Of a stretch of 37,270 nt of DNA, positions 3,143-22,786 are shown piece after piece (position 1 is the stretch's first letter; each line of letters starts with the position of its first letter). Source of the DNA: a virus; IMG/VR virus record IMGVR_UViG_3300006753_000021, positions 1-37,270 of that record, one strand, 5' to 3'. The notes under the pieces are model-generated. The model worked only from the letters and a program-made list of their open reading frames with translations. It ran no database searches and was not told the origin of the DNA. The translations under genes were made by a program, and so were the position numbers.

Positions 3143-3853
3143 CTAGAGGCTAAGTGACAATACCTTGAAGTCGATGCCCGTCTCGAACTCTTCAGAGCGG
3201 GAGAGAGAGACTTTGTCGGGGATGGCGATACTACCATCAAGCATTTCGGCCTTTATGATCTGATCTTCATACAGTTGCTTGTCCGATATCTGTCCCTGGG
3301 CGTCTCCCTCTTCGCCTTTCATAAATGCGCTTACCCACAGAGTCATTGCGTTCTGCACCCAGTCGGGATAGGTCAGGTCCAGGTCGGTGCCGTCATCGGT
3401 GGCGTCGTCGGCAAGCTCGGAAGCCTTGGAAATATACCGGTAGGATATTGTCTCCGACGAGGTGTCAGGGGTGTCTATCAGGTCGACCTCCCAGTATCCT
3501 GTCGAGGAGTTGATGCCACGGTATACGACAATGCGCGAGCCACCGGTCATATCTTCGTCGGGATCCGCGGGGTCCGTCTCGGCATAATCCCTGACGATCA
3601 TCATCGCGTCGTCGGTAGTATGCCTCCACGAGTTACGCAGGGGACGCAGCACATCCGCTGCCAGCGAATAGGTCCGCACCGTAGCCGTTGTGGTGATCGT
3701 CCCATCCTTAAAGCGAAAGCGCCACTCCCGCCGGTTGACGAGATCCTTCAGCCCCATGTTCAGTTGGTCTCGTGCTGCGGTCGTGTAGCTTGGCACATCG
3801 GTGGGCAGGCCTGCCCTGCGCAAACCCATCGTCAAAATTTTGGTCCCAGTCAT
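3143..3853 (-). CDS. Head-tail adaptor-like protein
   Basis: A 236-aa protein. Its N-terminus (LTMGLRRAGLPTD, then DQLNMGLKDLVNRREW) has the usual layout of podovirus adaptor proteins of the P22 gp4 type: a first helix with a Gly-Leu turn, then a helix rich in Leu/Asn that ends in Trp. A beta-rich middle and a helical tail follow. Adaptors bind the portal ring after packaging and form the upper tail. It sits between a 253-aa unknown protein (18 bases upstream) and the propeller-like gene (11 bases downstream). The ribosome site is weak. Confidence rests on layout plus neighbours. Confidence 0.6.
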   Translation of the reverse strand: MTGTKILTMGLRRAGLPTDVPSYTTAARDQLNMGLKDLVNRREWRFRFKDGTITTTATVRTYSLAADVLRPLRNSWRHTTDDAMMIVRDYAETDPADPDEDMTGGSRIVVYRGINSSTGYWEVDLIDTPDTSSETISYRYISKASELADDATDDGTDLDLTYPDWVQNAMTLWVSAFMKGEEGDAQGQISDKQLYEDQIIKAEMLDGSIAIPDKVSLSRSEEFETGIDFKVLSLSL

Positions 3854-3871: not shown

Positions 3872-4633
3872 TTATGCCTGCTCACCAACCTTGAAGGACT
3901 CTATCTGCGGGAGGGCACTGCCCGTCGTCACCGGGATCTTCGGTATGTTGTCAACGATCGATGCCAGGTTGCCTCCAGCATTTACCACCGACTCCACCTG
4001 CCGAACCGCTTTGCCTGCCGGCGAGAGGGCGTCGGCTGCGGCAAGCTCGTCAATCTTCCGCTCGCCGATCGTCGTCTGCCTGTTGAACCATCGGTCGATA
4101 TAGATCCTGGAGTGCCGCGCCTCCGTCTCTCCCAGTGCCTGCAGCAGTGTCTGCGCCTCCTCCGGTTCTTTGGCGTTGGGTATGATTTTCCTCTCTTCAT
4201 CGATGGGCTCGAATCTCGCGATAAACTCCACGCCCCTGACGGAGACCACATAGCCATAGCCCTCCAGCGCCTTGATCACCTCGCTATGCTCTTCAACATC
4301 GCGAATGGCAACATACTCGGGCACCGAGGGAATAAAATCCTCGCCGTGGCTTGCCGGGCCTGCCGTCGTCGCTACGATCGACACCTGCTCCTGCGTCTGC
4401 AGCAACGGGTTCTGTCCAATGTTGACATAGTCGGCATTCGTCCGCCGTGCCGGAGCCCTCTCCTGCCTTTTCTCCAGGGCGGAATCTACAGCCTTGCCGA
4501 CGATGCTCTCTAGCTGCGATACCGTCAGTTCGATCTTATTCTCTTCAGGCGTAGGCTCTTCAGATGCAACCTCTTCTACATTCGCTTCAGGCGCCGGCGA
4601 CTTTCCTGCGCCCTTCTGCCGGGTCGTTGCCAT
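3872..4633 (-). CDS. Conserved-looking virion-region protein, unknown
   Basis: A 253-aa protein. The start was set at ATG 4633 because an AAAGGAG site lies 7 bases upstream; a longer reading frame exists but would overlap the sulfotransferase-like gene more. The first 60 residues are acidic and low-complexity (EEVASEEPTPEENK). A compact domain follows with a beta-strand pair (YGYVVSVRGVEFIARFEP) and a helical C-terminus. The gene overlaps the preceding sulfotransferase-like gene by 47 bases. No family was recognised; it could be a minor structural or assembly protein by position. Confidence 0.6.
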   Translation of the reverse strand: MATTRQKGAGKSPAPEANVEEVASEEPTPEENKIELTVSQLESIVGKAVDSALEKRQERAPARRTNADYVNIGQNPLLQTQEQVSIVATTAGPASHGEDFIPSVPEYVAIRDVEEHSEVIKALEGYGYVVSVRGVEFIARFEPIDEERKIIPNAKEPEEAQTLLQALGETEARHSRIYIDRWFNRQTTIGERKIDELAAADALSPAGKAVRQVESVVNAGGNLASIVDNIPKIPVTTGSALPQIESFKVGEQA

Positions 4634-5156
4634 CGGTGTTCTCCTTTGTGTTTGGGCTTCGCACCCCGAAGCCTTTGAACGTAAACCACTCCACCGCGAT
4701 CTTCTCGCGCGCTTCATCGTCCAACCAGACCTCGATCGTCGGTATATGACAGGTCGCCGAGGTCAGCGTGTTCTCGTGCATCATCACGCACCACCGAGCA
4801 TCCTCTGCGTTGAGATGGTGGGACTTGATCAGTGACTCTATCTGTTCTTCCGCCGCCCTCCGACACCAGAGGCCCACCAGAGGCCTCTTGCCGGCGCTGC
4901 GCATCCAAACCGGCCAGGCCGTCGACAGGTAGGTGTTCTGCACAATGTAAGGGCTCTCGTCGCCGACCATCCATTTCTCCAGAGGACCGTAGCGCACGAA
5001 AGGACATAACCCCGGGGCGGTCTCCTTCAGCCGGTGGTGCTTGAGGATCCTCTCGTCAAGCTTCGGCGTCTCTTTACGCAGCGGCATACCTGCCTCCCTG
5101 AGGTGGCGAGCCATAGCTGAGGTGCCACTGCGAAACCCAAAGATCAGACCGATCAC
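4587..5156 (-). CDS. Small sulfotransferase-like P-loop protein
   Basis: A 189-aa protein that begins with GTG at 5156 as part of a GTGA overlap with the stop of the Pro/Gly-rich gene. Residues 1-20 (MIGLIFGFRSGTSAMARHLR) match the PAPS-binding loop of sulfotransferases (GxPRSGTS type) and the helix after it. The protein is shorter than usual sulfotransferases (about 250-300 aa) and the second PAPS-binding motif is not clear, so it may be a reduced or divergent member. A full sulfotransferase domain also occurs in the fusion gene at 10077-12416, so this phage encodes two. The likely role is transfer of sulfate to a phage or host glycan. The family call is fairly firm; the substrate is unknown. 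Confidence 0.6.
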   Translation of the reverse strand: MIGLIFGFRSGTSAMARHLREAGMPLRKETPKLDERILKHHRLKETAPGLCPFVRYGPLEKWMVGDESPYIVQNTYLSTAWPVWMRSAGKRPLVGLWCRRAAEEQIESLIKSHHLNAEDARWCVMMHENTLTSATCHIPTIEVWLDDEAREKIAVEWFTFKGFGVRSPNTKENTDGNDPAEGRRKVAGA

Positions 5157-5788
5157 CTGGCAAGCCCCAGCAGCTTCGCCATGTCCGCCGACCTGTTAGC
5201 GTTCTTCGCCTGGGTGCGTTGCTCCATCGCCCTGCCCTCATCCAGGTTGCGGCGCGCTGCCGTCCCCGCTCCCTTTAAGACGTCGCCGATGTTAAATCCT
5301 CCCAGCGCTTCCAGGTTGGAAGACCGCCCGGCTCCGAGCGGGGGGCTGGCCGGAGGTGCTCCTCCACCAAGGGGTGGTAAGCCTCCAGGAGGTCCGGCCG
5401 GAGGTGCTCCAACCTTAAACTCGGGAGGCAACAAACCTCGCTCATCAGGCAGCACGCCAGCGGTGTAAGCCTTGCGGTAGTCGTACATCACCGGCGGCAT
5501 ATCCGGATCGGGGTTCAGGCCCAGACCCTGGGCGATCTGCGCATACCACTTCTGGAATGACTGCTCCTGCTCCGGAGGCAGCACCGTCGGCGGCGCCTGC
5601 TCTGGAGGGGGAGCGCCCAGGCCTGGAGGCGGTCCTGGAGGCGGTCCCGCCAAAGGACCCGGTGGAGGTGCTGCCGGCCCAGGAGGTGCTAGCCCTGGCG
5701 GAGACGCTGCCGCTCCCGGGGGGCCTGGTCCCGCTGGCTGCGGAGGAGGAACTCCCCTCCCTATCCGCTTGATAAACTCATTGGGCAT
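5153..5788 (-). CDS. Pro/Gly/Ala-rich low-complexity protein
   Basis: A 211-aa protein from ATG 5788 behind an AAAGGCGG site. Residues 11-75 are almost only Pro, Gly and Ala. A folded-looking middle (residues 76-120, with SFQKWYAQIAQGLGLNPD) is followed by a second Pro/Gly stretch and a basic helical C-terminus (ARRNLDEGRAMEQRTQ). The stop overlaps the GTG start of the sulfotransferase-like gene, so the two are probably translationally coupled. Such linkers occur in virion proteins that span a distance or are ejected. Function unknown. Confidence 0.6.
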   Translation of the reverse strand: MPNEFIKRIGRGVPPPQPAGPGPPGAAASPPGLAPPGPAAPPPGPLAGPPPGPPPGLGAPPPEQAPPTVLPPEQEQSFQKWYAQIAQGLGLNPDPDMPPVMYDYRKAYTAGVLPDERGLLPPEFKVGAPPAGPPGGLPPLGGGAPPASPPLGAGRSSNLEALGGFNIGDVLKGAGTAARRNLDEGRAMEQRTQAKNANRSADMAKLLGLAR

Positions 5789-5803
5789 GTCTTGCCGCCT
5801 TTC

Positions 5804-8455
5804 CTATTGCTGTAGTCCGCGTCCGAGTGTCCGCAGAAACTCAAACTGTTTAGGTAGCTGCGGGGGAGACTTCACCCTCTTCACCATCTCTTCAAGGTTC
5901 TCAAAACCAGGCCTGCCCGCCTGGAGCTTTCGCTGTTGCTCCTGGTAGGCTTTCATCAGCGCCTCGTTCACCGGGTAGGATGGTTGACCCGACACCCCTC
6001 GAGGGTCTATAGTGAAGGGGTAGGGCTTCGCACCCGCCAGGCCCTCCGGCGATGGGCCACTGGAAAGATCCCGAAACTCTACGAACGGTTTCGAGAGGTC
6101 GTGCTGTTTAAGGGCTGCCAGTGATTCTTGCGCCCATTCTTTCATCTCTCTGATCTCGCCACTACCAGAGCCCACCGATCCACCAGTAGCAGAACGGGGT
6201 CCATAGGTCTTATCCAGCGCCCAGAAGAACGCCTGGGTCTCTCCCGGGGCGAGAGCGACGCCGTGCTTCTCGCTGATGTCTTTTGCAACCCGGCCGGTCA
6301 TATATTGTGCTACTCGGTAAGATTGGTCCATCTCGATCTTTGTCTGCACGCGCAAGCCCGTCTCAGGCGATACGCCTCCGATAGAAGCTCCAGATCCAGT
6401 GAACGAGGGCGCCGGCTTATTCGGCGGCGACGGGAACAGGGCCCCCAGGGCCTCTTTGCTTAACGTCTTTTTTTCTTCCGCTGTCGGCTTGCTCAATATC
6501 TTTTTTATCTCACCTGGTTTCTTCAGGCCTGGCTCCGCGATCCTCTTTGACATTGCGCTTGCATAGGCCCGGTTCGCTTTTCTCGTCTCCTTGTCCGTAA
6601 CTCCCTCGTTTAAGATGTCTGCTATATCCTTTACTTTCGTTTTCTCGCTCATCAGTTTGCTTACATCTGCGGTTCGCTGTTTTTTTGCCGCGTGTATTCT
6701 GGTCTTTTCCGCAAACTCCTCCATCACATGCCTGGGAGGTTCTCCATACCACGAGGCCATCATGACGTCGTTGGTGGTGCCAGGAAAGTGACTTCCTCCA
6801 AGGAAGCTGTTGAGCGTAAAGGTCTTCGTCTTCAGGTCGCCGCGCATCATGCCATCTTCATAAAACGCCGCCAACTTATCGGCGATTTCGCGCTGGGTCA
6901 TCATCGACACATTTTCTGTCTCACCAACCACCGGCACCCCTTTCCACTTTTTCGACCCCCGGGATCTAAGGAAGGTGTCGAGAAACAGGTCCCTGAACTC
7001 TTCCCTGTTATACTGCGCCGGCGAGGGCAGAGAAGCAAAATAGTCCCGGGCTACTCGCATCGCCTCAAACGCATCGCGTGGATTGACCTTGGCGGCTTTC
7101 TGTGGCGAGAGTATAGCGAACGCAGCATCGAACTCCGGAAGGTTGTGCTTTCCTATACCCTCGACCGGATCCTTCAGCCAATCTATAAGTTGATCATACC
7201 ACTGAAAGGATTCAGGCCACCGACGTATGCCCTCTTCAGTGATGGCGATCATCTCGTCGGTATTGACGTGACGAAGCATTCTCTCGGCTTGGGCGTTTAA
7301 GCCGATACCTTCGGCTGCCAGCATCGGCTTGAGTGCATCTGCCAGTTCATCGCCTGTAGGATTCCGCCCCAGCCTCTGTTTGTAGGTGTCATATACGACA
7401 GCCATCGCATCTTCCATAATGCCATGAGGGATCTGCACGTCGGTTTTCCCTGGAGGCATAAACCTCTCATACCCTTCCGTCGTCACAAAGGGGAACCTGT
7501 AATAAGAAACATCCTGCAGCGGTTCGCCCTCCTTCACGAGTGCTTGCGCCGTTTTGAGCGGCGCCGGTCCGGCAAGCTCTTGCTCGATCCTGCCGACAGG
7601 GCCTTGTGGCGTTGCTTTAGACAGGCCCTCGATCTCTTGCGTCCGTCGCTTTATGCGGTCCTCGTAGACCTTTATACCGTCCTTCTGTAATGTCCGCGCG
7701 AGCATTTCTCCTTCGGACTCCGCAGCCTCCCGTATGAGGCTGGCCGGCGCCAAACCCTTGTGTATTTTCGACGCCTTCTTCTTCAGTTCCTTCGACCCTG
7801 TCTCTATCGCCTCCCGCACGCCCTGCTGCTTAACATTCTCGGTGACCTTCTTCAGATGTTTAATAACCCCTCGCAGGAAGTCCGGCGAAGCCATTGCCGT
7901 TGACAGCAGCGGAGCAGCCCCCTTCTCTATTAGGGCTTCTAGCAAAAAGCTCGCAGGGTTAGTTCGAAACTCGCTGCGCATCATCCCGGGGATTTGTCCA
8001 GCCACGCCTTTCAGTGCCTCACGCCCTTCCGGCGTCGTCGCCAGTGTTCCGACATCCATCGCCGTTCCGGCGGCTTCCTTTATTTTCTCTCCGAGCATCG
8101 ATAGGTTTTCGCCCGGCGGCCGGCTTACGGTTGCCGCCAGACCCTCTACGCCACGGGTAGCCATTTTGCCAAGAGAGGGCAAAAGATTCTCCAACGCTGT
8201 GGCAACATCTCCAGAACTCGTTCCGAGGAGTTCGAGAAACCGTCGCCCTTTAGGAGTAATCAGCCCCGCCGCTTCTCGTCGCCGCCTTTCTTCCTCGTCG
8301 ATGGCGTCTTGTGTTATCGGCAGCGCGCCTAATATACTGCGAGCACTCTCCGGAGGTGGTGCGATAGGCTTCGCTGGGGGCAAAGGCGGCGATAGAATAT
8401 CCAGCAGGGTAGGCTGCTGCGCCTGTCGTCGTTTCTCGAAGATAGTCTGCGCCAT
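5804..8455 (-). CDS. Large helical virion/ejection-type protein, 883 aa
   Basis: The largest gene of the window. The ATG at 8455 directly follows the TAG of the 95-aa gene. The N-terminal 260 residues are Pro-rich then helical and amphipathic (ESARSILGALPIT, KMATRGVEGLAATV). Residues about 270-520 look like a compact enzyme-like domain with conserved-looking FDAAFAILSPQKAAKVNP and FQWYDQLIDWL segments. The C-terminal third is Lys-rich, then Pro/Gly-rich. Size, helical content and place near the tail genes fit an internal protein ejected with the DNA, possibly carrying an enzymatic domain, but no catalytic motif can be named. A short part (8221-8249) recurs at 18677-18705. Confidence 0.6.
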   Translation of the reverse strand: MAQTIFEKRRQAQQPTLLDILSPPLPPAKPIAPPPESARSILGALPITQDAIDEEERRRREAAGLITPKGRRFLELLGTSSGDVATALENLLPSLGKMATRGVEGLAATVSRPPGENLSMLGEKIKEAAGTAMDVGTLATTPEGREALKGVAGQIPGMMRSEFRTNPASFLLEALIEKGAAPLLSTAMASPDFLRGVIKHLKKVTENVKQQGVREAIETGSKELKKKASKIHKGLAPASLIREAAESEGEMLARTLQKDGIKVYEDRIKRRTQEIEGLSKATPQGPVGRIEQELAGPAPLKTAQALVKEGEPLQDVSYYRFPFVTTEGYERFMPPGKTDVQIPHGIMEDAMAVVYDTYKQRLGRNPTGDELADALKPMLAAEGIGLNAQAERMLRHVNTDEMIAITEEGIRRWPESFQWYDQLIDWLKDPVEGIGKHNLPEFDAAFAILSPQKAAKVNPRDAFEAMRVARDYFASLPSPAQYNREEFRDLFLDTFLRSRGSKKWKGVPVVGETENVSMMTQREIADKLAAFYEDGMMRGDLKTKTFTLNSFLGGSHFPGTTNDVMMASWYGEPPRHVMEEFAEKTRIHAAKKQRTADVSKLMSEKTKVKDIADILNEGVTDKETRKANRAYASAMSKRIAEPGLKKPGEIKKILSKPTAEEKKTLSKEALGALFPSPPNKPAPSFTGSGASIGGVSPETGLRVQTKIEMDQSYRVAQYMTGRVAKDISEKHGVALAPGETQAFFWALDKTYGPRSATGGSVGSGSGEIREMKEWAQESLAALKQHDLSKPFVEFRDLSSGPSPEGLAGAKPYPFTIDPRGVSGQPSYPVNEALMKAYQEQQRKLQAGRPGFENLEEMVKRVKSPPQLPKQFEFLRTLGRGLQQ

Positions 8456-8743
8456 CTACCCTATCCCCCCGTAAACCTTCGGTCCTTCGGCATAGTCACT
8501 GTCCTGGAACTTGTCGATCGCTCGCTTTACCCCTGCGATGCTCGGCATCGTCGGTGTCTCGATGTCGTGACCCGGCAGGCGACGGCTGTTCTTCATCACG
8601 CCCTTGAATGTCGGCAAATCCACGCGCGCCTCCGGACCGCCGGCGATGCGCCGTATCTCCCACCCTCGATACATGACGACGGCAAGGGTCGCGTGCCCTT
8701 TGATGGTCGGGTATGCACCGAACTCTTTGATCTTCTTGTTCAC
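8456..8743 (-). CDS. Small protein of 95 aa, unknown
   Basis: Begins with GTG 8743 in a GTGA overlap with the stop of the glycosyltransferase, and its TAG abuts the ATG of the 883-aa gene. Sequence features are a Lys-rich start (VNKKIKEFGAYPTIKGHATL), a beta-rich middle (AVVMYRGWEIRRIAGG) and an acidic C-terminus. A longer upstream frame would lie inside the glycosyltransferase and lacks a ribosome site. The tight coupling on both sides argues that it is a real gene. Function unknown. Confidence 0.55.
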   Translation of the reverse strand: MNKKIKEFGAYPTIKGHATLAVVMYRGWEIRRIAGGPEARVDLPTFKGVMKNSRRLPGHDIETPTMPSIAGVKRAIDKFQDSDYAEGPKVYGGIG

Positions 8744-9663
8744 GCTGCCACCATCGGTTTCTCTGCGTGCGCCAGGTATCTGTCGATCAGCACCCGTACG
8801 TCGTGGTTGCCCTTCACCCACTGCCGTCCCCACGTCTGCGGACCTGCATGCTTCTTGAGTTCCTCCGCCAGGTCCTCTGCGCTGTAGGATATCCTGTTGG
8901 TGCGCCCTGAGCAGTTGCGTCGCACCAGTTCGCTCACGTTGTCTTCCGTCACCCAGCCGTCGCCCTGCACCTCCCACTGCCGATAGCCGTTGGGCCGGCG
9001 GGCGAGGACGAACGCTGCGCAGTTGCAGGAGAGCGCCTCATACACTCCGCGGCCGGAGGAGATCACAATGTCGAAGTAGGGCATCAGCCTGTCGATATGA
9101 TAGACCGGGTTGGTCTGATAGTTGGCGAAGTCGAACGGCAGCCTGGCGATGCCACAGGCTCTCTTACACAGTTCCTGTAGCTGGGCGTTCTTCGTGAATA
9201 TCAGCACCCGGGGCAAATCATCGCGCTTCCGGTCCAGGGGCTTGAACCTCTTCAGATCGATCGGGTTGAGTATCACCTCGGGGTTGAACTCCATCGCGCT
9301 GCGCGTGGCTATCTCCTCGCTCACCGCCACGTAATGATCCGCGCCGAACACCATCGTTTCGAGACGATGGGCCGGTCCGTGCGATGTGAAGACCTTCGGA
9401 CCTTCGACATACTCAATGCCCTGCACATACTCAATGCCCTGCAGCATGGTGTTGTGGTTTACCAGGCACAGATCGAACGGTCCGTGCGGGATCTGGTCGG
9501 TTACCTCGAGGTTGTGCAGGCGTCGCTTGGCGAACTCGCCTATCCGCGGGGACAGGACGGTCACCTCGTGGCCTCGCCTCTGTAGCTCGTGCGCCATTGT
9601 CTCCGTCCAGGTCTGCGTGCCGCCCAGTTCAGCCAGGTCGGCGTTGGTCATCAGGATTCTCAT
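8740..9663 (-). CDS. Glycosyltransferase family 4-type (GT-B fold)
   Basis: A 307-aa protein from ATG 9663 behind a GGAGGG site. The N-terminus (MRILMTNADLAELGGTQTW) carries the Gly-Gly-Thr loop of GT4 enzymes at residues 14-17. HGPAHR at 95-100 and the late SSGRGVYEALSCNCAAFV segment (202-219) match the nucleotide-sugar binding Glu region, where GT4 proteins have a E(x7)E or EAx-type motif. It is shorter than typical GT4 proteins (350-400 aa). A six-residue duplication (GIEYVQ/GIEYVE, 77-88) comes from an 18-base tandem repeat. It is cytoplasmic and transfers a sugar from a nucleotide donor; the acceptor is unknown. It probably works with the other sugar-modifying genes nearby. Confidence 0.8.
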   Translation of the reverse strand: MRILMTNADLAELGGTQTWTETMAHELQRRGHEVTVLSPRIGEFAKRRLHNLEVTDQIPHGPFDLCLVNHNTMLQGIEYVQGIEYVEGPKVFTSHGPAHRLETMVFGADHYVAVSEEIATRSAMEFNPEVILNPIDLKRFKPLDRKRDDLPRVLIFTKNAQLQELCKRACGIARLPFDFANYQTNPVYHIDRLMPYFDIVISSGRGVYEALSCNCAAFVLARRPNGYRQWEVQGDGWVTEDNVSELVRRNCSGRTNRISYSAEDLAEELKKHAGPQTWGRQWVKGNHDVRVLIDRYLAHAEKPMVAA

Positions 9664-9672
9664 GATCCCTCC

Positions 9673-9756
9673 TTACCTGTAGGGCAGCAGACTGCCGTCG
9701 GCCTCCGCCACCACCTTGCCATCCTTCAGATTGGGGTGGCTGATATGGATCATCAT
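9673..9756 (-). CDS. 27-aa small ORF upstream of glycosyltransferase
   Basis: A short frame (MMIHISHPNLKDGKVVAEAD start) fills the gap between the 130-aa gene and the glycosyltransferase. It ends in TAA that forms part of the next ribosome site region (TAAGGAGGG). It reads like protein but has no clear ribosome site of its own. It may be a leader peptide coupled to the glycosyltransferase. Its last codons and the following ribosome site (9660-9686) recur inverted at 18700-18726. Confidence 0.4.
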   Translation of the reverse strand: MMIHISHPNLKDGKVVAEADGSLLPYR

Positions 9757-9769
9757 TGCGAAACTTTTT

Positions 9770-10162
9770 TTATTGCCTCGCAAAAACAGCGTAGATGCGC
9801 ATATCCTCCATCCGGCACTGCTGCATCTCCAGGCCTACGCGGTCACACCACCGGGCCAGGTTGAGCTTCAAGACGCGCCTTACATCGGGACCCGGCACCT
9901 CCGGCTTCTTCATCGTATCGCTGACATACAGGATTCCGTCGGGCCCTATCTGCTCTACAGCCCCCTGCAGCGTCTCGTCGACGTTGCCTACAGACAGCGT
10001 ATCCAGCAATAGAGCGTCTTTACGGCCCTTGACGGGCACATACAGCTTTAAACGCGGATCCGGCGCGTTAGGGGTGCTAGCGCGCTTCCTGGGCTTCTTG
10101 GCGGTGCTCCTGGTGCTCTTCGCCGTGCTCTTGCTCGATTTCTTCGAGACTGACTTTGCCAT
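9770..10162 (-). CDS. Basic-tailed 130-aa protein, possible methyltransferase fragment
   Basis: Starts at ATG 10162 behind a perfect AGGAGG, inside the 3' end of the fusion gene (86-base overlap in another frame). Residues 1-35 are histone-like (KKSSKSTAKSTRSTAKKPRK). The rest (LLLDTLSVGNVDETL, IGPDGILYVSDTMKKPEV, LNLARWCDRVGLEMQQC) resembles the C-terminal half of class I methyltransferases, where a GPDGxLYVSD strand follows the cofactor site, but the SAM-binding GxGxG loop is missing. It may be a partner, remnant or unrelated small protein. TAA is followed by seven A residues. Confidence 0.55.
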   Translation of the reverse strand: MAKSVSKKSSKSTAKSTRSTAKKPRKRASTPNAPDPRLKLYVPVKGRKDALLLDTLSVGNVDETLQGAVEQIGPDGILYVSDTMKKPEVPGPDVRRVLKLNLARWCDRVGLEMQQCRMEDMRIYAVFARQ

Positions 10163-12416
10163 TGCCTCCTCCTGCTATAGCCTGCTCCAGGCTGACCACC
10201 TTCCGTTGTGGGACATATTCTATATCCGGACCGTAGGCGTTGCCCCAATCGTCTTGGAGGGGTTCCATCGTGAGCTCGCCCTGCCTAAGCTGCATCCGGC
10301 GACTCTCCTCCAGCCTCTTGTGGACGACGATCTCCCCGGGGTCGACATCACCGTGAGCAATGGTCCACCCGAAATGGACATAGCGGTCGATGCCGAGGTC
10401 CTCGCAGTATTGGCAGAAGAAGCTGTCGGTAGGACAGGGACCCCACTGCCTGAAGGGATCCAGCCCCAGCGGTGTCTTGATATATTCCCGCAGCCGGTCC
10501 TGCGTCTGCTGGTCTCCCTGGATCAGTGCCTTCAGGTCCTGCTGCGATACCAGCAGGTTGCCCCAGGCCTCTTGCATCTTCTCGAACACCGACATCTTCA
10601 CCAGCGTGAAGGCCCAGGATATCAGGTCCGTCTTCTGCACAAGATCCTCGCCCTCCACATAATCGAAGGGTATGAGGTAGGCATTCTTGTCCTTCATCTC
10701 CTGCCGGGGAAGGATCATCGACACCTCGGGATGGTCCTTGCGCATATTCAGGCTGTTGTGGGGGAACCCCCGCTTGTAGGTATGGAAGCCGATCACGTCT
10801 TTGTCGGCCTCCAGCAGCACCTCCAGCCCGTCGTCGGGGTACTGGTGGTGGTCGCACTCCGTAAACAGGATATGACTGGCACCGATCTTGGTAGCGTGCC
10901 GCACAGCCACCTTCTGTGCATAGTGCAGGCCCCTGTAATACTGCGTCACCGTCACCAGGTTATGCTTCACCCGGTTGCGAGCATACCACTCCTGGAAGTT
11001 CTCCATATGCTCGGGCTGGGGGGTGAGGAAAGGCCTGCTGACGACGATCGGGGGCTTGCCGGTTTTCTTCGCCTTGCAGTAGATGCGCCCGCCGGTATCG
11101 CGCAGCCAGGTGATGATAAATCCCTTCAGCCATCTCTTCAGGTCGGCTGCCGTGATAGCACGCAGGTGAATAGGGTTGCTGTCCTCGACGTTGGGAGCGG
11201 TGATGTATACTTCGCCGCCCACCCTGAGACATCGGTTCGCTGTGGCTATCACCTTCTCTGGGTCCGCTACGTGCTCCAGCGTCTCCGTCACTAGCACATA
11301 GTCATAGGGGCGCTCGTCGTCGAACTCCTCGGCATACCCCTGGTAGATCTCGCCCTTCATCCCCTCGGGCTTCATCTTATGGAACTTGTCGATAGCCTCC
11401 TGCACAAGCTCCACGCCGACCACGTCACATCCCAGCTTGCTATAATGTATCAGGCTGGCGCCGGTGCCGCAGCCCAGATCCAGGATGCGGGATCCTGACC
11501 GTGGACGAAAATGCCTCATCCACGGGCGCAGGTCCGTCCGATCGTAGGAGGGGTTGTCGCGATACAGTTCCTCATCGCCGAAATCACCCGCCGGGTTATG
11601 GAAGAGCTTCAGAAGGAATGAACCCCGCCCCACGTGCAGGTCCTTCAAAGTCTCTTTGGTAAGCTCTTCGCCGGATCCGCGGATCTTCGCCAGGCCGGCG
11701 ACCAGCCTCTCCTCGGCATCCAGAGCCTGAGGGTGATAGACGTGGCATTTCTCCTTGACATACGCTATCTCCTCCGGAGTCATCTCCTGCTTGTAGCTGT
11801 CAGCGATGCCCTTCCGGAACACTCCCGGGTCACCTTCGAACGCAGGCTTACGGTGATTGGCCTCCACGGCACAGTTGACTATCGCTGTAGTATCCGCCAG
11901 CCCACAGAACTTGAACAGGTTGGTGACCTCGCAGTGGGGAGCCAGCAATAAATCTTCGTAATGGACAATCTTCATCCGCGGGTCAATGCGATGCTCCGCC
12001 CACCGCGCCATAATCTCGTTGTAGGCCAGCGTCGCCCGCTCGATGGTCCAGCTTTGCGTGCCGGCGGCATCGCCGCTATGCATCATCGCATTGATGGTTC
12101 CCAGCGGCGACCTCTTCACCCATACCACCTTCGCCTCGGGAAACAGTCCCCAGATACGATCCAGCACCAGGGCGTGCGTCGGCGTTTTTTCGAACAACAC
12201 CTTGTCCAGAAAGACATCCTGAATGCCATCGATAAGCTGCCTGATATAAACATCACTATGGCGTTCACCGAGGTGCGATACGAACAACGCCGTCTCCCGC
12301 GTCACCGTCGACACGCCCATGTCCTCGGGCACCACAGCCCTGGTGTCAGGATGGGCATTCATCAGTCCCCATACCCAGTTGGTGCCACTGCGAGGACACC
12401 CTACGATAAATATCAT
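10077..12416 (-). CDS. Sulfotransferase-methyltransferase-glycosyltransferase fusion
   Basis: A 779-aa protein. ATG 12416 was chosen because GAAAGGA lies just upstream, overlapping the previous stop region. Domain 1 (about 1-250) is a sulfotransferase: the 5'-phosphosulfate loop GCPRSGTNW (6-14), a 3'-phosphate type strand WVKRSPLGTINAMMHS (99-114) and HYEDLL (152-157). Domain 2 (about 280-450) is a class I SAM methyltransferase: ILDLGCGTGA (311-320), acidic VVGVEL (332-337), then VTETLEHVADP. Domain 3 (about 470-710) looks like a GT-A glycosyltransferase: FTECDHHQYPDDG (518-530) as the metal site region, DVIGFHTYKRG, and a late HFGWTIAHGDV. The tail is Glu/Gln/His-rich (756-779). All three active-site loops are present. 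It most likely adds, sulfates and methylates a sugar on one acceptor. Confidence 0.85.
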   Translation of the reverse strand: MIFIVGCPRSGTNWVWGLMNAHPDTRAVVPEDMGVSTVTRETALFVSHLGERHSDVYIRQLIDGIQDVFLDKVLFEKTPTHALVLDRIWGLFPEAKVVWVKRSPLGTINAMMHSGDAAGTQSWTIERATLAYNEIMARWAEHRIDPRMKIVHYEDLLLAPHCEVTNLFKFCGLADTTAIVNCAVEANHRKPAFEGDPGVFRKGIADSYKQEMTPEEIAYVKEKCHVYHPQALDAEERLVAGLAKIRGSGEELTKETLKDLHVGRGSFLLKLFHNPAGDFGDEELYRDNPSYDRTDLRPWMRHFRPRSGSRILDLGCGTGASLIHYSKLGCDVVGVELVQEAIDKFHKMKPEGMKGEIYQGYAEEFDDERPYDYVLVTETLEHVADPEKVIATANRCLRVGGEVYITAPNVEDSNPIHLRAITAADLKRWLKGFIITWLRDTGGRIYCKAKKTGKPPIVVSRPFLTPQPEHMENFQEWYARNRVKHNLVTVTQYYRGLHYAQKVAVRHATKIGASHILFTECDHHQYPDDGLEVLLEADKDVIGFHTYKRGFPHNSLNMRKDHPEVSMILPRQEMKDKNAYLIPFDYVEGEDLVQKTDLISWAFTLVKMSVFEKMQEAWGNLLVSQQDLKALIQGDQQTQDRLREYIKTPLGLDPFRQWGPCPTDSFFCQYCEDLGIDRYVHFGWTIAHGDVDPGEIVVHKRLEESRRMQLRQGELTMEPLQDDWGNAYGPDIEYVPQRKVVSLEQAIAGGGNGKVSLEEIEQEHGEEHQEHRQEAQEAR

Positions 12417-12420
12417 CGAC

Positions 12421-12939
12421 TCATCCTTTCTCGGCTCTCTCGCCGATTGCATACCAGTAGGAATCATCTGAAAAACTTCGAGGTATCAGCCCTGCCTGTA
12501 ACACATAGACCTCCAGCACCAACAACGACACATCGCGAACGTGCGTGGTACACCGCTTCTTGATCTCCGCCAGAAATAGGGTGCCACCTTCCTTCAGAAG
12601 CTCAGCGCAGCGCCAGACGACATACCCGGGATCGACGACGTGCTTCAAGATATCGGTGCATACGATGTGGTCGAACCGCTCGTCCGTCTCGAACTCTTCT
12701 ATCAGATCCGGATAGACGGTAATCCTATCTCGCGTCGCCTCCTCCAGCGCTAGACAGTTCTCCTCGCAGTTCTCCCTGTAAGGCGCGCCGGGCTCCAGCC
12801 CTGTCACCGTATGTCCCGACATCGCGTAGTGTATCAGGTTGGCTCCCAGGTAAGACCCTACGTCCAGGATGGCGCTGCGTTCTTTCACGGGGAAATGCGC
12901 GATGTGCGGCCGCAGGCAGAACGTGCTGTTCTGCGGCAA
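12421..12939 (-). CDS. SAM-dependent methyltransferase, start uncertain
   Basis: A class I methyltransferase: AILDVGSYLGANLIHYAMSG (motif I; the usual second Gly is Ser/Tyr), acidic VTGLEP, then HIVCTDILKHVVDP and LLKEGGTLFLAEI. It is similar in layout to the methyltransferase domain of the fusion protein (LGCGTGASLIHY there), suggesting common origin. Coding character extends upstream to about 12990 in this frame (SSELDDYRALFEEAATLPQN), but no ATG or GTG is available there. TTG 12939 is the first start codon. Either it starts at TTG or the frame is joined to the glycosyltransferase upstream by a frameshift (see findings). The stop is 4 bases from the fusion gene start. Confidence 0.7.
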   Translation of the reverse strand: MPQNSTFCLRPHIAHFPVKERSAILDVGSYLGANLIHYAMSGHTVTGLEPGAPYRENCEENCLALEEATRDRITVYPDLIEEFETDERFDHIVCTDILKHVVDPGYVVWRCAELLKEGGTLFLAEIKKRCTTHVRDVSLLVLEVYVLQAGLIPRSFSDDSYWYAIGERAEKG

Positions 12940-12979
12940 CGTTGCAGCCTCCTCGAAGAGAGCGCGGTAGTCGTCAAGC

Positions 12980-13747
12980 TCACTTGACGACGGGATGTTT
13001 AACCCGGGGGAAGACCTCCACGTCGCCGGACCTGACGTCGGCCCAGCGGACGAGATCGAATCCGTAGTCGGACTTGCCATCATCGTGGACTGCTCCTCCT
13101 CGCCGCTGGGCCCACTTCTCTGCATACTTCGGGCCGAACACATCGGCGTAATAGTTGCACTTCTCTTCCCACGCGTCGATCGATATGGCCTTGCCCAGAT
13201 GCAGCACGTTGCCGGCGATAGTGTGCGACTCCCTGGCGCTGAGGTAGCACGTGGGGTTCCTCTGGTCCGGCTTATGGAACGTCGGGTTGGTCTTCGCCCT
13301 GAAGAAGTAGGGCTGATACTGCCACTCGGGACCCACCCACCGGCGCTCCGTATATGGATCCTCGGCATCCTCGGGAGTGATATAAGCGTCGAAGCTCTTG
13401 CAGGCTATAGCTTCGAACCTCTCATTCTCCAACACCTCCTGAGGCATGTCGTAGATCCACTCATCGCCGTCGAAGTAGACGACCCAGTCGTCCTTCTCCA
13501 TAAACCGAAGGGCCGAGTTAACCAGTATCTGCCGGTTGTAATACTCAGCCCTCTCTCTCTTCTCATCGAACAGGTCCGACGCCAGCACCTCGACGACCGA
13601 CGGATGACGTCGGCAGATCTCCACCGTGTCGTCCGTAGAGCAGTCGTCATACACGTGGATCCGGTCGCACAGCCCCGACCAGTTGTCAAGCGTCCGCTCG
13701 ATGATGTGAGATTCATTTCTAAGTTTGGTGATTCCCACAACCCTCAC
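12980..13747 (-). CDS. Glycosyltransferase family 2-type (GT-A fold)
   Basis: A 255-aa protein from GTG 13747, in a GTGA overlap with the HNH gene stop; longer starts would run into the HNH gene. It has the N-terminal GT2 pattern RVVGITKLRNESHIIERTL (2-20), nucleotide-binding VYDDCSTDDT (32-41) and a DxD-type metal site YFDGDEW (91-97). RNE and DxSTDDT are hallmarks of family 2 enzymes that work on surface glycans. It transfers a sugar from a nucleotide donor in the cytoplasm. It is the first gene of the sugar module and is followed directly by the methyltransferase frame. Confidence 0.85.
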   Translation of the reverse strand: MRVVGITKLRNESHIIERTLDNWSGLCDRIHVYDDCSTDDTVEICRRHPSVVEVLASDLFDEKRERAEYYNRQILVNSALRFMEKDDWVVYFDGDEWIYDMPQEVLENERFEAIACKSFDAYITPEDAEDPYTERRWVGPEWQYQPYFFRAKTNPTFHKPDQRNPTCYLSARESHTIAGNVLHLGKAISIDAWEEKCNYYADVFGPKYAEKWAQRRGGAVHDDGKSDYGFDLVRWADVRSGDVEVFPRVKHPVVK

Positions 13748-14136
13748 GCCACGTGCCTCCACGCAAGCCCCTGCCGAATCATTTGGATGGGACACTTAGT
13801 TACAGAAAACATCCGAGCAATACTCCTCTGCGACAAACCATCTCGCAACAAGGCCCTGATTTTTCTGACGTCACTCTCGGTCAACTTTGCCTTTGGATTA
13901 TTCTCCCCCCAGGTTCTCGGGCTCCTGTTCGCCCGACCCTTTTCCACCATGTCCGCTAAGTTATCGCGTTGAGTTCCCACAAACAGGTGATCGGGATTTA
14001 CGCACTTTGGGTTGTCGCAGTGGTGACAAAGACCCATCTTAGGTAAAATCGATGTGTGTGTAGACAAAACAAAAGCTATCTGATGGGCTTTATAATTTGA
14101 GTTGTTGATAGTCAAACACCCATAGCCATCGATCAT
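13744..14136 (-). CDS. HNH homing-type endonuclease
   Basis: A 130-aa protein. The HNH core is KMGLCHHCDNPKCVNPDHLF (33-52): HHC, then CxNPDHL, which binds zinc and the catalytic metal. It is followed by GTQRDNLADMVEKGRA, typical of phage free-standing HNH proteins. The C-terminus (KLTESDVRKIRALLRDGLSQ) is a NUMOD/resolvase-like DNA-binding helix-turn-helix. The usual N-terminal CWxW segment is absent and no good ribosome site is seen, so the gene may be truncated at its 5' end. It sits between virion genes and the sugar module, consistent with a mobile gene that may have carried or flanked imported DNA. Confidence 0.85.
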   Translation of the reverse strand: MIDGYGCLTINNSNYKAHQIAFVLSTHTSILPKMGLCHHCDNPKCVNPDHLFVGTQRDNLADMVEKGRANRSPRTWGENNPKAKLTESDVRKIRALLRDGLSQRSIARMFSVTKCPIQMIRQGLAWRHVA

Positions 14137-14159: not shown

Positions 14160-14591
14160 CTAGCTCAACTCCACTACCATCTGGATACTTACGGCGTCTC
14201 CCACCGCTCCACCTACCGTCGTCAGGGTGATGTCTCCCGTCGTGCCGGTGGAAGCGGGGTCCTTGGTGAATCCCTCGTCACGCGCCATCTCCCACGGGAA
14301 AAAATCCGTCTTCGGCGGCCACTCCAGCGCCACTCCGCCCGGGCATCCGATGATCAGGTCGTCGGTCGTCGCGTCCCACTCCAGGTAGGCTATCATTCCG
14401 GAGCCGCCCGTCGATAGCCGCAGCCACTTGATCTCCGACTTGGTGGACACAAACGGCAACAAGGCCGAGGCGTCCATCACCACGTAGTCTGTCAGGTCGG
14501 AGGCATCGGCCTGCCCGAAATAGTTGACATAATACATGTGGGTATTGCCGATCTTCTTCTGCACCTTCTTGAATTTGTGTGCCCAGGCCAT
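14160..14591 (-). CDS. Small virion protein, possible capsid decoration
   Basis: A 143-aa protein from ATG 14591 behind an AAAGG site; a 17-base hairpin ends 16 bases before the ATG. The sequence is beta-rich with a compact core (WLRLSTGGSGMIAYLEWDAT, DLIIGCPGGVALEWP) and a C-terminal strand-rich tail (TGDITLTTVGG). Small beta-sandwich proteins of this size near the coat gene often decorate capsids. That role is inferred from position and fold character, not from a recognised family. Its DNA ends just upstream of the HNH gene. Confidence 0.55.
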   Translation of the reverse strand: MAWAHKFKKVQKKIGNTHMYYVNYFGQADASDLTDYVVMDASALLPFVSTKSEIKWLRLSTGGSGMIAYLEWDATTDDLIIGCPGGVALEWPPKTDFFPWEMARDEGFTKDPASTGTTGDITLTTVGGAVGDAVSIQMVVELS

Positions 14592-14823: not shown

Positions 14824-15687
14824 CTACCCATTCAACTGAAGGAACAGCGGCCCATACTCGGAATCGGCAATAGCCGATCCCATAAAGCCGATTTTCACAT
14901 CAGCGAAGTTGTAGGTAGGCCAGTCGGCTTCCGAGGCCTGCACGGCGATGTGCATAGGCTGGAAAGCCCCATTCACACTGTCGGACAGGGTCGCATTGGT
15001 CCCCTCTGCCGCCGTCCCTGCCGTAACATCCGCCAGGCAGTTCGCCCATCCCCAGGTCTGCGTCCAGGCGTAGTATGCCGCGGTGACGCCCCGGATCGGA
15101 ATGCCCTTCACGTTCATGTCCACGCCATTGTCGGCGATCTTCAGGTTCTTGTAGGGATGGCCTTTGATCTCGCAGGAGGACTCGGAGTCCAGCGCCGCCT
15201 CGAGCTTGTCGTGGAGGACAAGCTTGACAGCTCCGGCGGTGGCCGGCGTCACCTCAGGCTGCGGATGCTCCTTGATGCGATACTTGTATCCTTCGCCTGC
15301 GCCGTCGGTGATGAAGAGATACCCTCCGGCCCATACGTTCTCCGCATCGTTCTCGGACTGGAACGTGTCGGTGTCCGTCAGGTAGACGGTGTCGTCGTCA
15401 GTGCCGTAGTCGTCCTTCGCGGTACCGGCACTGTCGGTGAACTTGCCATCGATCGATGCAAAGCCCGCCACCGAAATGTCGAGGGCCGCGAGCTTGCCGG
15501 CGGTGACAGCGGCGACGTAGTGCGAATACCGGTAGACGGATCCGTCATCTACGTCGAGAGGCAGCCCCAGCGAGGAGGTCTGGCTAGACTCCTCCTTGTA
15601 GAGGCCGAGGCTCGGGCCCGCCTGCCCCGAGCCCAACCGCGTGCGGATGGTGTGCGAATGCCCACCACCAAAAAAGGTCTGTGCCAT
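14824..15687 (-). CDS. Virion structural protein of 287 aa
   Basis: ATG 15687 lies behind GGGAAAAGGGA; a start 10 codons further upstream has no good site. The product is Gly/Thr/Asp-rich with many short strands (VYRYSHYVAAVTAGKLAALD, GYLFITDGAGEGYKYRIKEH) and a regular hydrophobic-polar pattern of a secreted-like or capsid-surface beta protein, but no signal peptide. It directly follows the coat gene and would fit a second capsid or decoration protein made in large amounts. The call rests on position and composition. Confidence 0.6.
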   Translation of the reverse strand: MAQTFFGGGHSHTIRTRLGSGQAGPSLGLYKEESSQTSSLGLPLDVDDGSVYRYSHYVAAVTAGKLAALDISVAGFASIDGKFTDSAGTAKDDYGTDDDTVYLTDTDTFQSENDAENVWAGGYLFITDGAGEGYKYRIKEHPQPEVTPATAGAVKLVLHDKLEAALDSESSCEIKGHPYKNLKIADNGVDMNVKGIPIRGVTAAYYAWTQTWGWANCLADVTAGTAAEGTNATLSDSVNGAFQPMHIAVQASEADWPTYNFADVKIGFMGSAIADSEYGPLFLQLNG

Positions 15688-15769: not shown

Positions 15770-16777
15770 TTACGAGACGTTGGTCATCACGAAGTTACGC
15801 CGCGGGTTCAGCGCCACAAACTGGATGCCCACCAGGTAGAAGCCTACCATCGCGAGCACGCCGGTGGCATCCGCTCGGACAAACGGCGTCTTGGCGAAGT
15901 TGGCGCCCTTCATGATCTTGAGCTTCATGGTGTTGATGTTGTAGCCGTAGATATGGCTGGCGGCTACAGCGCGGTCCTTATACACCATCGCACCGCGGAA
16001 GGCGGGCCCACTGCCTACACGCTGTCCGCCGGCACCAAGCTGCGCCTTGTCGCGCGCGCCGAACCGGACATAGCCCTGCCCCTCGAGGGTCGACAACAGC
16101 TTGTGATACAGCGTCGACCCTGCAGCGATGTGCGTCACCTCTTCGTTGATGTCCGAGGCCGCCTCAACCTGCGCGCCGATCTGATCCCAGCCATTGAAGA
16201 TGTTGGCGACCGTCTGCGCGGTGACGGTCACTGCGGAAGTGTATGCCTGGTTACGGAAGAACGAGTTGGCTGCTACGGACAGGTCGATGCCGCCGAGGGT
16301 TCCGACGCTGACAGAGTCACGCACCAGATCCTGGTTCCCCAGCATCGCCTTGCCGGTGGCCGCCGCGTTCATCGCGGTGTTGATAGCCGTGCGGAGACCC
16401 TGCCGGGCTCCGATGGATTTCGACTCGGCGAATGTTATCGCCGCCGTCTTGGAGGCCTGGGCCCTCAACTCGTCAGTCTTCGCGATGTTGACAGGCGACA
16501 GAGCAAACCGCCACGGGTAAACTGCCGTGGTGATCATCTCCTTGTCGTCTGTATCGACGGACTGCCGCTCACTCATCCACTCAGCATCCTGATACGCATA
16601 CATGATGCGCTCTTCGATGCTCTCGCCGCCGACCTCCTCTTCCACCTTGCCAGCAGCGTGGAAGAGGTCGAGGGTCGGCTGCGAGTTTCCGATGTTGTCG
16701 GAAATACGGGATTTGCGTGCGCGCGCTACCGTCGAAAACAGAGTATCATAGGTTACTGTTTCGGTCTGCGCGGACAT
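15770..16777 (-). CDS. Major capsid (coat) protein
   Basis: A 335-aa protein from ATG 16777 with an AAGGAG site 8 bases upstream. It directly follows the scaffold gene in transcription order, the normal coat position. The sequence fits HK97-fold coats: an N-terminal arm, an acidic spine-helix region (VEEEVGGESIEERIMYAYQD), a helix with AITFAESKSIGARQGLRTAI, a P-domain helix NIFNGWDQIGAQVEAASDIN, and a C-terminal strand VGFYLVGIQFVALNPRRNFV. Length is typical (300-430 aa). The call rests on gene order and this pattern. It would be the most abundant virion protein. Confidence 0.8.
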   Translation of the reverse strand: MSAQTETVTYDTLFSTVARARKSRISDNIGNSQPTLDLFHAAGKVEEEVGGESIEERIMYAYQDAEWMSERQSVDTDDKEMITTAVYPWRFALSPVNIAKTDELRAQASKTAAITFAESKSIGARQGLRTAINTAMNAAATGKAMLGNQDLVRDSVSVGTLGGIDLSVAANSFFRNQAYTSAVTVTAQTVANIFNGWDQIGAQVEAASDINEEVTHIAAGSTLYHKLLSTLEGQGYVRFGARDKAQLGAGGQRVGSGPAFRGAMVYKDRAVAASHIYGYNINTMKLKIMKGANFAKTPFVRADATGVLAMVGFYLVGIQFVALNPRRNFVMTNVS

Positions 16778-16822: not shown

Positions 16823-17779
16823 CTACTCTCCTGCTCCTGCGAAGAGGGCGCCTACCTGGTCTCTCAAGTCGCCCTCCGTCATAGGCCCATCACCCGCCGG
16901 TGCCGTCATAGGCGCGGTCACCGACGCAAGGTTCTGTCCCTGGCTGCGTATCGAAGCGTCCTCGCTGCGTGCCGCTTCAGCCGTCTGCTGCAGCTTGCCG
17001 CTTAAAAACTCATAGGCACTCTTCACGGTGTAGGGCTGCTGCGTCGCCCGGTTCATCATGGGCTCCGAGACAGGGTTGTAGTCTGCATTCAACCCCAACA
17101 CCCTTCGGATGTCGTCAGACCAGTCGTTGATATCATTTCCGTAAGCGTCAACAGCTTCTGCCACCTGCTTCTGGAAACCATCGCGTAGCTCGCGCTCGCG
17201 ATCGGCGGAGATGCTACCCAATTGATCCTTCAGGTCCGGAAAGCTGTTCAAGATCTCCTCGAACGGCGCCAGGGCCTTCGACACCTCCTGGGTGATAGCC
17301 TGCTGGATGAACACCACCCCGTTACGGGTGTCGTTATCCAGGTTGGGCAGGTTGAGGGCTGACTCGATAATATCGACCTGCTCTTCCGGTGCTGCCTGCG
17401 GCGTGCTGCGTTCCAGCATCTGCTGCTGTAACGTGAGCAGTTCCTTACTGCGATCTTCCAGCGCCCGCTCACGACGCGACAGGTCCTCGAACTGCCGGGT
17501 GCCGTCACCCTGCACAGCGCGTACCTGCTTCTGAGCCGCCTCGACTGCTGCCCGATGCTCCCGGGGCACAGTCAAGGGATCTACGCGACGGAGGTCTACG
17601 GATTGCCAGTCGAAGGGCTTCGCGGTACTGGGCTGGGCCGGCTCGGGGGCAGCAAGAGGTGCAGCAGGCTCTGTCTGCGGGGTGGGAGCAGGATCTGCTC
17701 CGGCCGCGGTCTCATCGCCTACCGGATCCGCTGCGGATACGATGCCGATGCCCTCCTCAGGGGCGAGTTCTTCGGGCAT
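16823..17779 (-). CDS. Scaffolding protein
   Basis: A 318-aa protein from ATG 17779 behind AAGGGGA. The N-terminal 70 residues are acidic and Pro/Ala-rich (PEELAPEEGIGIVSAADPVG). A coiled coil follows (about 85-125, DLSRRERALEDRSKELLTLQ), then a helical middle and a Gln/Ala-rich C-terminus. It lies just upstream of the coat gene, as scaffold genes do, and would guide coat assembly and then leave the procapsid. Bases 17465-17512, in the coiled coil, recur as an inverted copy inside the 228-aa gene at 18228-18275. Confidence 0.75.
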   Translation of the reverse strand: MPEELAPEEGIGIVSAADPVGDETAAGADPAPTPQTEPAAPLAAPEPAQPSTAKPFDWQSVDLRRVDPLTVPREHRAAVEAAQKQVRAVQGDGTRQFEDLSRRERALEDRSKELLTLQQQMLERSTPQAAPEEQVDIIESALNLPNLDNDTRNGVVFIQQAITQEVSKALAPFEEILNSFPDLKDQLGSISADRERELRDGFQKQVAEAVDAYGNDINDWSDDIRRVLGLNADYNPVSEPMMNRATQQPYTVKSAYEFLSGKLQQTAEAARSEDASIRSQGQNLASVTAPMTAPAGDGPMTEGDLRDQVGALFAGAGE

Positions 17780-17801
17780 TGATATTCCCCTTAAATGACA
17801 A

Positions 17802-17839
17802 GAGCCCCCAACGGTGCCGTTAAACACCGGTGGAGGCTC
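17802..17839 (-). other. Long hairpin before scaffold and coat genes
   Basis: A 15-base stem with one mismatch and one G-U pair in the minus-strand transcript, 8-base loop, located 23 bases upstream of the scaffold start. The following bases (TTGTCATTT) are only weakly U-rich. It could be an mRNA processing or stabilising site that raises scaffold and coat output, or a leaky terminator. Confidence 0.65.
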
Positions 17840-20158: not shown

Positions 20159-20470
20159 TCACCACTTGGGTTGCACCGCCGGCATCACCGGCAGCGTCTT
20201 GCGTTCCGTCATCGCCTTTATCCTGCTGGCTGTGCCCAGCGTCAGCGGACCGAGGATAAATCCGTTCCGCCCCAGGATCGGACCGCGGCCGGAGACCAGA
20301 TGCGCCTCCAGCAGCACCGTGGCTGCCTCGAAGTGTCGCAGTTCGTCGACCGTCAGCTTGAGAACCATCGGCGCCTCGGCCGGCGTGGGCTTCTCTCTCT
20401 CCGTCACCTTCGGTGGATAGATTTTCTCGTACCTTGTATCATCCAAATCGGACTTCTCTCTCTTCGTCAC
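20159..20470 (-). CDS. 103-aa protein coupled to portal
   Basis: GTG 20470 overlaps the portal stop (GTGA). The N-terminus is charged (MTKREKSDLDDTRYEKIYPP). A middle helix (LTVDELRHFEAATVLLEAHL) is followed by a Gly/Pro-rich, basic end. It is followed after 3 bases by the DUF3008-like gene. Function unknown, likely virion assembly by position. Confidence 0.6.
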   Translation of the reverse strand: MTKREKSDLDDTRYEKIYPPKVTEREKPTPAEAPMVLKLTVDELRHFEAATVLLEAHLVSGRGPILGRNGFILGPLTLGTASRIKAMTERKTLPVMPAVQPKW

Positions 20471-22587: not shown

Positions 22588-22786
22588 CGTCCGGATCCTT
22601 GCATACAAACGTGTTATGTTCGATGCCGTCGTGGTCGGTAAAGGTGGTCTCTGCCACTGCTCGCGTAGCATAGCGCTTTGCAAAAGCTCCGCGGGCCCTG
22701 AGGGCCTCTTTGAGAGCATCTCCCCCCACATCTACCCACCCCGTCTTGTCCACTTGCCTCAGAATGTCCTCGATAGAGATGTTCAT
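22577..22786 (-). CDS. 69-aa small protein between terminase and portal
   Basis: MNISIEDILRQVDKTGWVDV start at ATG 22786, which overlaps the stop of a 24-codon frame behind it (ATGA). An earlier in-frame ATG at 22849 would add 21 residues. The middle (KEALRARGAFAKRYATRAVA) is basic, the end acidic (NTFVCKDPDDED). The stop overlaps the portal start. Function unknown. Confidence 0.55.
   Translation of the reverse strand: MNISIEDILRQVDKTGWVDVGGDALKEALRARGAFAKRYATRAVAETTFTDHDGIEHNTFVCKDPDDED

Follow-up and report, generated by a model that had tools for sequence, protein, structure and literature searches.

A decoration-type protein and a set of glycan-modifying enzymes that co-segregate in an uncultured phage lineage

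Introduction

A few mycobacteriophages are known to glycosylate their virions, but which protein the sugar enzymes of a phage serve is usually not established. That question is raised directly by the linear IMG/VR record IMGVR_UViG_3300006753_000021 (37,270 bases, possibly an incomplete record, and analysed here over its whole length as "the window"), in which glycosyltransferases, methyltransferases and a sulfotransferase are encoded behind the gene of a decoration-type protein that we call DECO (14824–15687, minus strand, 287 amino acids). The minus strand carries nearly all window genes for which a family can be recognised, and the enzyme block lies on it in the same direction as the genes for terminase, portal and major capsid protein. 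What do these enzymes modify, and why are they placed here? A preliminary description, made from the sequence of the window, had proposed that they decorate the virion itself. Comparison with relatives supports that purpose: the enzyme module holds a fixed position behind DECO, its presence tracks DECO type and not the capsid, portal or downstream genes, and a small prospective comparison agreed. We think it probable, judging from gene content and gene histories, that DECO and the enzymes form a heritable, swappable cassette that glycosylates the capsid surface, with DECO as the presumed acceptor.

Results

The module recurs behind DECO

The sole enzyme common to every module-bearing locus is a domain that we call GTb, which in the window is the C-terminal part (10128–11105) of a fusion protein. 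GTb alone, used as the query, retrieved the GTb-encoding relatives from IMG/VR (contigs labelled L001 and so on), and in 15 of 15 it lies in a block behind DECO within the late cluster, in the order capsid, DECO, module, p281-like gene, p236. DECO adjoins the capsid gene in all relatives, and the p281-like gene is in all of them the first gene past the cassette site; in the window it encodes a protein of 253 amino acids (3872–4633, minus strand), listed previously as an adaptor of 281. The conserved virion-region protein p236 (236 amino acids, 3143–3853, minus strand) forms the downstream flank. Recurrence of this arrangement in at least 15 other contigs is far above chance. Identity to the window is 41–54% for GTb and 33–65% for DECO, and even in module-bearing phages whose capsid proteins are only 26–33% identical, DECO remains 33–45% identical; homologues of the family 2 glycosyltransferase (GT2) are 42–58% identical in most module-bearing relatives.

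A portal search returned many module-free relatives, which ruled out that the lineage has the cassette as its fixed core. The contigs L006 and L007, with capsid proteins 70% identical to that of the window, lack it, and in at least 20 others the interval between DECO and the p281-like gene is empty or holds other cargo; the module is therefore an insertion at one site. In L007 this site (8885–10057) holds a 391-amino-acid protein matching phrog_8198, a family of no known function (E 5e-20), and in L006 a member of a 189-amino-acid family discussed below. The preliminary description had held that relatives with the same virion genes and unrelated cargo would speak against it. Such relatives do exist in number; their DECO, however, is of another type (only 36–37% identical to that of the window in L006 and L007), and the link between DECO and the module is thereby strengthened.

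Beyond the lineage, a search of 50,697 phage records matched none of portal, GTb, DECO and the protein p509, and matched the fusion protein via its generic methyltransferase domain only. Neither GTb nor portal had relatives in 84,980 prokaryote species genomes, searched for hosts and prophages. The lineage comprises hundreds of IMG/VR contigs, none of them from a cultured phage.

Module presence follows the type of DECO

On the capsid tree (33 sequences), presence of the module must change at least three times, the changes being forced by well-supported branches, and the data reject a single module-bearing clade (log-likelihood difference 317; p-AU, from the approximately unbiased test, 1.4e-5). 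The portal tree and the p236 tree, a control from the downstream flank, likewise require at least three changes each. The DECO tree requires exactly one. When it was rerun with bootstrap, without any column of the module-specific insertions and with one further locus, a single change was again sufficient (support 100/100, in 100% of bootstrap trees), and imposing on DECO the capsid clade that joins the window, L001, L002 and L003 with L006 and L007 is rejected (p-AU 0.001). From this comparison of trees, both flanks conflict with the history of DECO, and the module agrees with it.

A prospective comparison used DECO profiles built from the first set of loci, with new loci fetched by a DECO query and classed by DECO type. 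Three new contigs fell in the module-bearing class; one of them ends at the site, and the two that are testable both have the module, with GT2 directly after DECO in L102 and with GT2, methyltransferase, GTb, methyltransferase and family 4 glycosyltransferase (GT4) in L105. In the other class, none of the 35 contigs, many of which are near-copies, has the module, and p236 lies within ~1.05 kb of DECO, leaving no space for one.

Distances among module-bearing phages add a further, quantitative view. Those of GTb track DECO when capsid is controlled (partial Mantel r 0.53, p 0.0002) and track capsid more weakly when DECO is controlled (0.30). In the pair L012 and L022, identity is 86% for DECO, 68% for GTb, 60% for capsid and 46% for portal, and the ratio of nonsynonymous to synonymous substitution rates is 0.11 for DECO, 0.15 for GTb and 0.25 for GT4, as under purifying selection.

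DECO and its class-specific insertions

Its place, together with a few weak matches to virion proteins, suggests that DECO is a capsid decoration protein. Two members of its family match a virion structural PHROG (E 1.5e-6), and its AlphaFold model is all-beta, with a predicted local distance difference test score (pLDDT) of 83.7. A fold search of that model against the PDB gave nothing below E 0.01 (best 0.011, at chance level), and the short, 150-amino-acid DECO-like proteins of relatives had no Pfam or PHROG match. Two insertions, SAGTAxD and an [A/N]S[E/Q/N] loop, are specific to DECO of module-bearing phages and absent from the other class; the loop is found in 14 of 14 aligned module-bearing sequences and in 0 of 13 module-free ones. 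Confidence in the model, good elsewhere, is lower around this loop, whose serine is our best candidate for a glycosylation site on DECO. The DECO of L023 is without the first of the two insertions.

The enzymes of the module

Pfam matches bear out the GT2, methyltransferase, fusion enzyme and GT4 that had been recognised in the late direction behind the decoration-type protein, all on the minus strand. GT2 (12980–13747, 255 amino acids from GTG 13747) matches PF13704 with 43.7 bits against a curated cut-off of 27.5 (E 4e-11), and also PF00535. MT1 (12421–13083, about 220 amino acids from ATG 13083, with an AGGAGG ribosome site) is an S-adenosylmethionine (SAM)-dependent methyltransferase (PF13489, E 7e-10), and GT4 (8740–9663, 307 amino acids, also with an AGGAGG site) matches PF13439 with 38.3 bits against 28.5 (E 1.7e-9). 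Between them, the fusion protein (10077–12416, 779 amino acids from ATG 12416) combines a sulfotransferase (PF13469, 78.4 bits against a cut-off of 27, E 1.3e-21), a methyltransferase (PF13489, E 4.7e-19) and GTb, in that order. Alignment of the fusion with the enzymes of L020 and L021 reveals the PRSGTN motif that binds 3′-phosphoadenosine 5′-phosphosulfate and the region of the 3′-phosphate motif. None of the module enzymes has a membrane-spanning segment.

In relatives the domains of the fusion have genes of their own or are fused in other ways: GT2 is joined to GTb in L001 and L015, and L021 has GT2, methyltransferase, sulfotransferase, GTb and GT4 all as separate genes. Because domains that are fused here are separate elsewhere, the fusion suggests that the enzymes share one pathway. 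A joining of GT4 to the fusion in L002 may be a frame reading through a 130-amino-acid gene and is not relied on. A dioxygenase of the PhyH family (PF05721) is added in L010, L014 and L015, GT4 is missing from L016 and L023, and GT2 is missing from several module-bearing loci. The sulfotransferase is accessory, being restricted to the window, L020 and L021; sulfate, earlier taken as a general feature of the coat, is not supported as such and would mark few members, and the host mimicry that the preliminary description ascribed to it is speculative. Of the two sulfotransferases of L020, one (PF13469, 4117–4791) lies outside the module, between the portal and scaffold genes. Judged by these gene contents, sulfotransferase, methyltransferase and PhyH are optional parts, variously fused. 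Two loci show further peculiarities: in L023 (1772–2436) GTb is broken up over two overlapping reading frames, through decay or an error of sequencing, and is not followed by GT4, and in L105 a further glycosyltransferase-like open reading frame (15020–15646) lies past the module and the p281-like gene.

GTb itself has no Pfam match in any of 15 aligned members. Its AlphaFold model, made from this 15-sequence alignment, has a pLDDT of 80.5 and exceeds 90 across much of the core, and Foldseek places it in the PDB among GT-A glycosyltransferases, including human LH3 (E 3.9e-6), COLGALT1 (7e-6), Mnn9, mimivirus R699 and STIV A197; GT-A proteins of uncultured phages match with E down to 2e-12. Residues E83, D85, D227 and H251, in ExD, DS and HG motifs, are invariant in the 15 members. 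Model and alignment thus provide both a GT-A fold and a conserved metal-binding or catalytic acidic motif, from which GTb is predicted to be an undescribed GT-A-type glycosyltransferase. Assignment as a GT25-type collagen glycosyltransferase did not hold, the match to a COLGALT1 profile reaching E 0.3 over 48 positions with no Pfam match. A protein acceptor would fit the nearest solved relatives of the modelled fold, which act on proteins, but does not follow from them as proof. A collagen-like sequence of hydroxylation and then glycosylation, suggested by PhyH and the LH3-like fold, was demoted to a lead because PhyH occurs in only three loci and the fold match is unspecific.

Two small proteins required reassessment. 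The preliminary description had passed over a 130-amino-acid protein (9770–10162), which hhalign against the module methyltransferases identifies as a class I methyltransferase fold reduced to its C-terminal half, with the SAM-binding half missing (probability 95.9, E 5.8e-9). It is kept between GTb and GT4 in L001, L002 and L003 and might be a non-catalytic partner. The 189-amino-acid protein (4587–5156), in turn, had been read as a second small sulfotransferase from an RSGTS motif, and this is not supported: the motif is the sole basis, none of three homologues matches Pfam, and hhalign against the true sulfotransferases of these phages gives a probability of 1.7%, albeit from thin alignments. 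Since the protein is also found in the module-free L006, it is not tied to the module.

Boundaries and neighbouring genes

From the terminase gene to that of the 189-amino-acid protein, the window genes named in this section lie on the minus strand. The late genes upstream comprise the terminase (22864–24756), the portal (20467–22731, assigned through relatives), a scaffold-like protein (16823–17827) and the major capsid protein (15770–16777, 335 amino acids from ATG 16777, AGGAG ribosome site; phrog_9953 major head protein, E 4e-25), which stands outside the cassette as its upstream landmark. The module had been drawn as 4587–13747. Its contiguous enzymes (GT2, methyltransferase, fusion, half-methyltransferase and GT4) run from 13747 to 8740, and this block stands; an 883-amino-acid protein and a proline-rich 211-amino-acid protein intervene before the 189-amino-acid protein (5156–4587) and cut it off. 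Coupling by 4-base overlaps is likewise correct for part of the interval, with GTGA at three junctions: HNH/GT2 (GTG 13747), GT4/95-amino-acid protein (GTG 8743) and 211-/189-amino-acid proteins (GTG 5156). At the remaining junctions the genes overlap further, meet end to end or are a few bases apart, and several have AGGAGG-type ribosome sites. The 95-amino-acid protein (8456–8743) has no assigned function and by blastp is kept in L001–L003.

An HNH endonuclease-like gene (13744–14136, 130 amino acids; PF13392 and PF05551 just under cut-off, and PF13936), not mentioned previously, overlaps the start of GT2. It was seen at this place in the window and in no relative, and is probably a mobile gene, perhaps recently inserted at the cassette border. 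The 143-amino-acid protein (14160–14591), probably virion-associated according to blastp and gene maps, is no fixed part of the cassette; its family changes place, lying after DECO in the window and between terminase and portal in L001 (1595–2044), L002 (1433–1855) and L009 (4055–4474). Large proteins occur near p281 and p236 in some relatives, one in L003 (7038–9047) with a sub-threshold match to ART-PolyVal, the ADP-ribosyltransferase of polyvalent proteins, and one in L006 (6964–7803) that is similar by eye. Elsewhere in the window, 27754–28191 matches PF18143 (E 1e-19), a HAD domain of Swiss Army Knife RNA-repair type, and two DNA methyltransferase genes lie near it (26902–27588 and 31462–32247).

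Discussion

How might such a cassette work? Late in infection, GTb, perhaps the enzyme that recognises the acceptor, would add a first sugar to DECO, for which the serine-containing surface loop specific to module-bearing phages is the best candidate attachment site. GT2 and GT4 would then extend the glycan, and optional tailoring enzymes would complete it, perhaps with methyl and sulfate groups in the window and with hydroxylation by PhyH elsewhere. The cassette would be exchanged within the lineage at the site flanked by the capsid gene and the virion gene that follows, such that capsids of different ancestry gain or lose the coat along with the matching decoration protein. The broader proposal, that a decoration protein and a dedicated glycan pathway with options for sulfation, methylation and hydroxylation are exchanged as one unit among such capsids, giving a chemically variable coat by a logic comparable to surface-antigen switching, is one that we put forward tentatively and hold slightly short of even chances.

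Several observations weigh against this interpretation. DECO lacks a confident structural match, so that the label of decoration protein rests on position. What GTb resembles in the PDB is a widespread fold, at a template modelling (TM) score of ~0.4, and the fold does not fix the acceptor. GT4 distances follow capsid and not DECO, and those of GT2 follow neither. The independent transitions of the module number only about three, and since many of the 35 prospective negatives are near-copies, the strength of the case lies in the trees. The contigs are fragments, and phages classed as module-free may carry the module elsewhere. Neighbouring genes, moreover, may move together without a functional link. 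Taken to its end, this last point would make the enzymes variable cargo with no defined role in the virion, hitchhiking beside DECO, and the other cargo found at the site in L006 and L007 lends it some colour. We nevertheless give it very little credence: GTb has been kept in place, with invariant active-site residues, across capsid divergence down to 26% identity, the genes of the L012/L022 pair are under purifying selection, and mere co-movement is disfavoured because GTb covaries with DECO more than with capsid and DECO bears insertions specific to module-bearing phages.

The other explanations concern what is modified. The acceptor could be a different virion protein (the capsid protein, the 143- or 883-amino-acid protein, or a fibre), with DECO as a passenger or a non-covalent partner. 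The acceptors of mycobacteriophages, which are described as capsid and tail-tube proteins (PMC12363180, PMC12619734), and the GT4 distances both lean this way, but it is the DECO tree and not that of capsid, portal or p236 that tracks the module, and the 143-amino-acid gene lies elsewhere in several module-bearing relatives; we regard such an acceptor as unlikely. Somewhat less credible to us is that the enzymes alter glycans of the host surface, late in infection or in a lysogen, so as to exclude superinfection or convert the serotype. Membrane proteins are used by the classical systems of serotype conversion. In the module no membrane flippase or membrane glycosyltransferase of the Gtr type is found, and no integrase appeared among the proteins scanned, which were part of the open reading frames. 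GT4 and GT2 enzymes are common in the synthesis of surface polysaccharides, and temperate phages are described as using glycosyltransferases for serotype conversion (PMC12619734); the fixed site among virion genes and the co-segregation with DECO type speak against this role. Viral glycosyltransferases are also described as hypermodifying DNA (Pyle et al. 2024, via PMC12619734), and the window encodes DNA methyltransferases, so that protection of phage bases from restriction could be imagined. This we judge highly improbable: the module adjoins virion genes and not replication genes, and no thymidylate-synthase-like or base-hydroxylating gene was among ten proteins scanned from the early and late regions. 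Modification of the host surface or of DNA fits less well than glycosylation of the capsid surface, because neither explains the fixed place of the module or its link to DECO.

If capsid-surface glycosylation is correct, it becomes testable why phages that have no animal-host antibodies to evade should coat their capsids. Genomics alone here names a likely acceptor, a candidate loop and the tailoring enzymes that vary across a lineage. Searches of the literature for sulfated phage glycans returned nothing relevant, and a decoration-protein-linked glycan cassette with sulfation appears to be new.

Among the closest known systems are those of mycobacteriophages, whose glycosyltransferases are reported to modify the capsid and tail-tube proteins and thereby shield the particles from antibodies (PMC12363180, PMC12619734, PMC11256854); virion glycosylation is described for Che8, Corndog and Myrna (Freeman et al. 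2023, through PMC12363180, PMC11256854 and PMC12619734). In both cases glycosyltransferases encoded by a phage are taken to act on that phage's structural proteins, here from genes alone. Compared by description, the acceptors there are capsid and tail-tube proteins, whereas here the enzymes lie behind a decoration-type protein and co-segregate with it; in Maravista, a relative of Che8, they are described as lying near the 3′ end of the genome. The present enzymes further differ in forming an exchangeable cassette with sulfotransferase, methyltransferase and dioxygenase options. The GT-A fold of GTb is common to LH3, COLGALT1 and mimivirus R699, which are among its best PDB matches, but identity is 10–13%, the TM score is ~0.4 and many GT-A enzymes score nearly equally, leaving a lysine acceptor unsupported; the PhyH dioxygenase of three modules does not belong to the lysyl hydroxylase family. 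GT-A proteins of uncultured phages in BFVD share the fold, with E to 2e-12 and TM scores (by target) up to 0.7, at 11–17% identity. Finally, sulfotransferases of the PF13469 family occur in marine phages such as those of OM43, where their role in phage genomes is called unclear (PMC10580990). The enzyme of the window belongs to the same family, but is fused to a methyltransferase and a glycosyltransferase, which gives it a substrate context, and phage sulfotransferases would, if the favoured explanation is true, gain a concrete candidate substrate.

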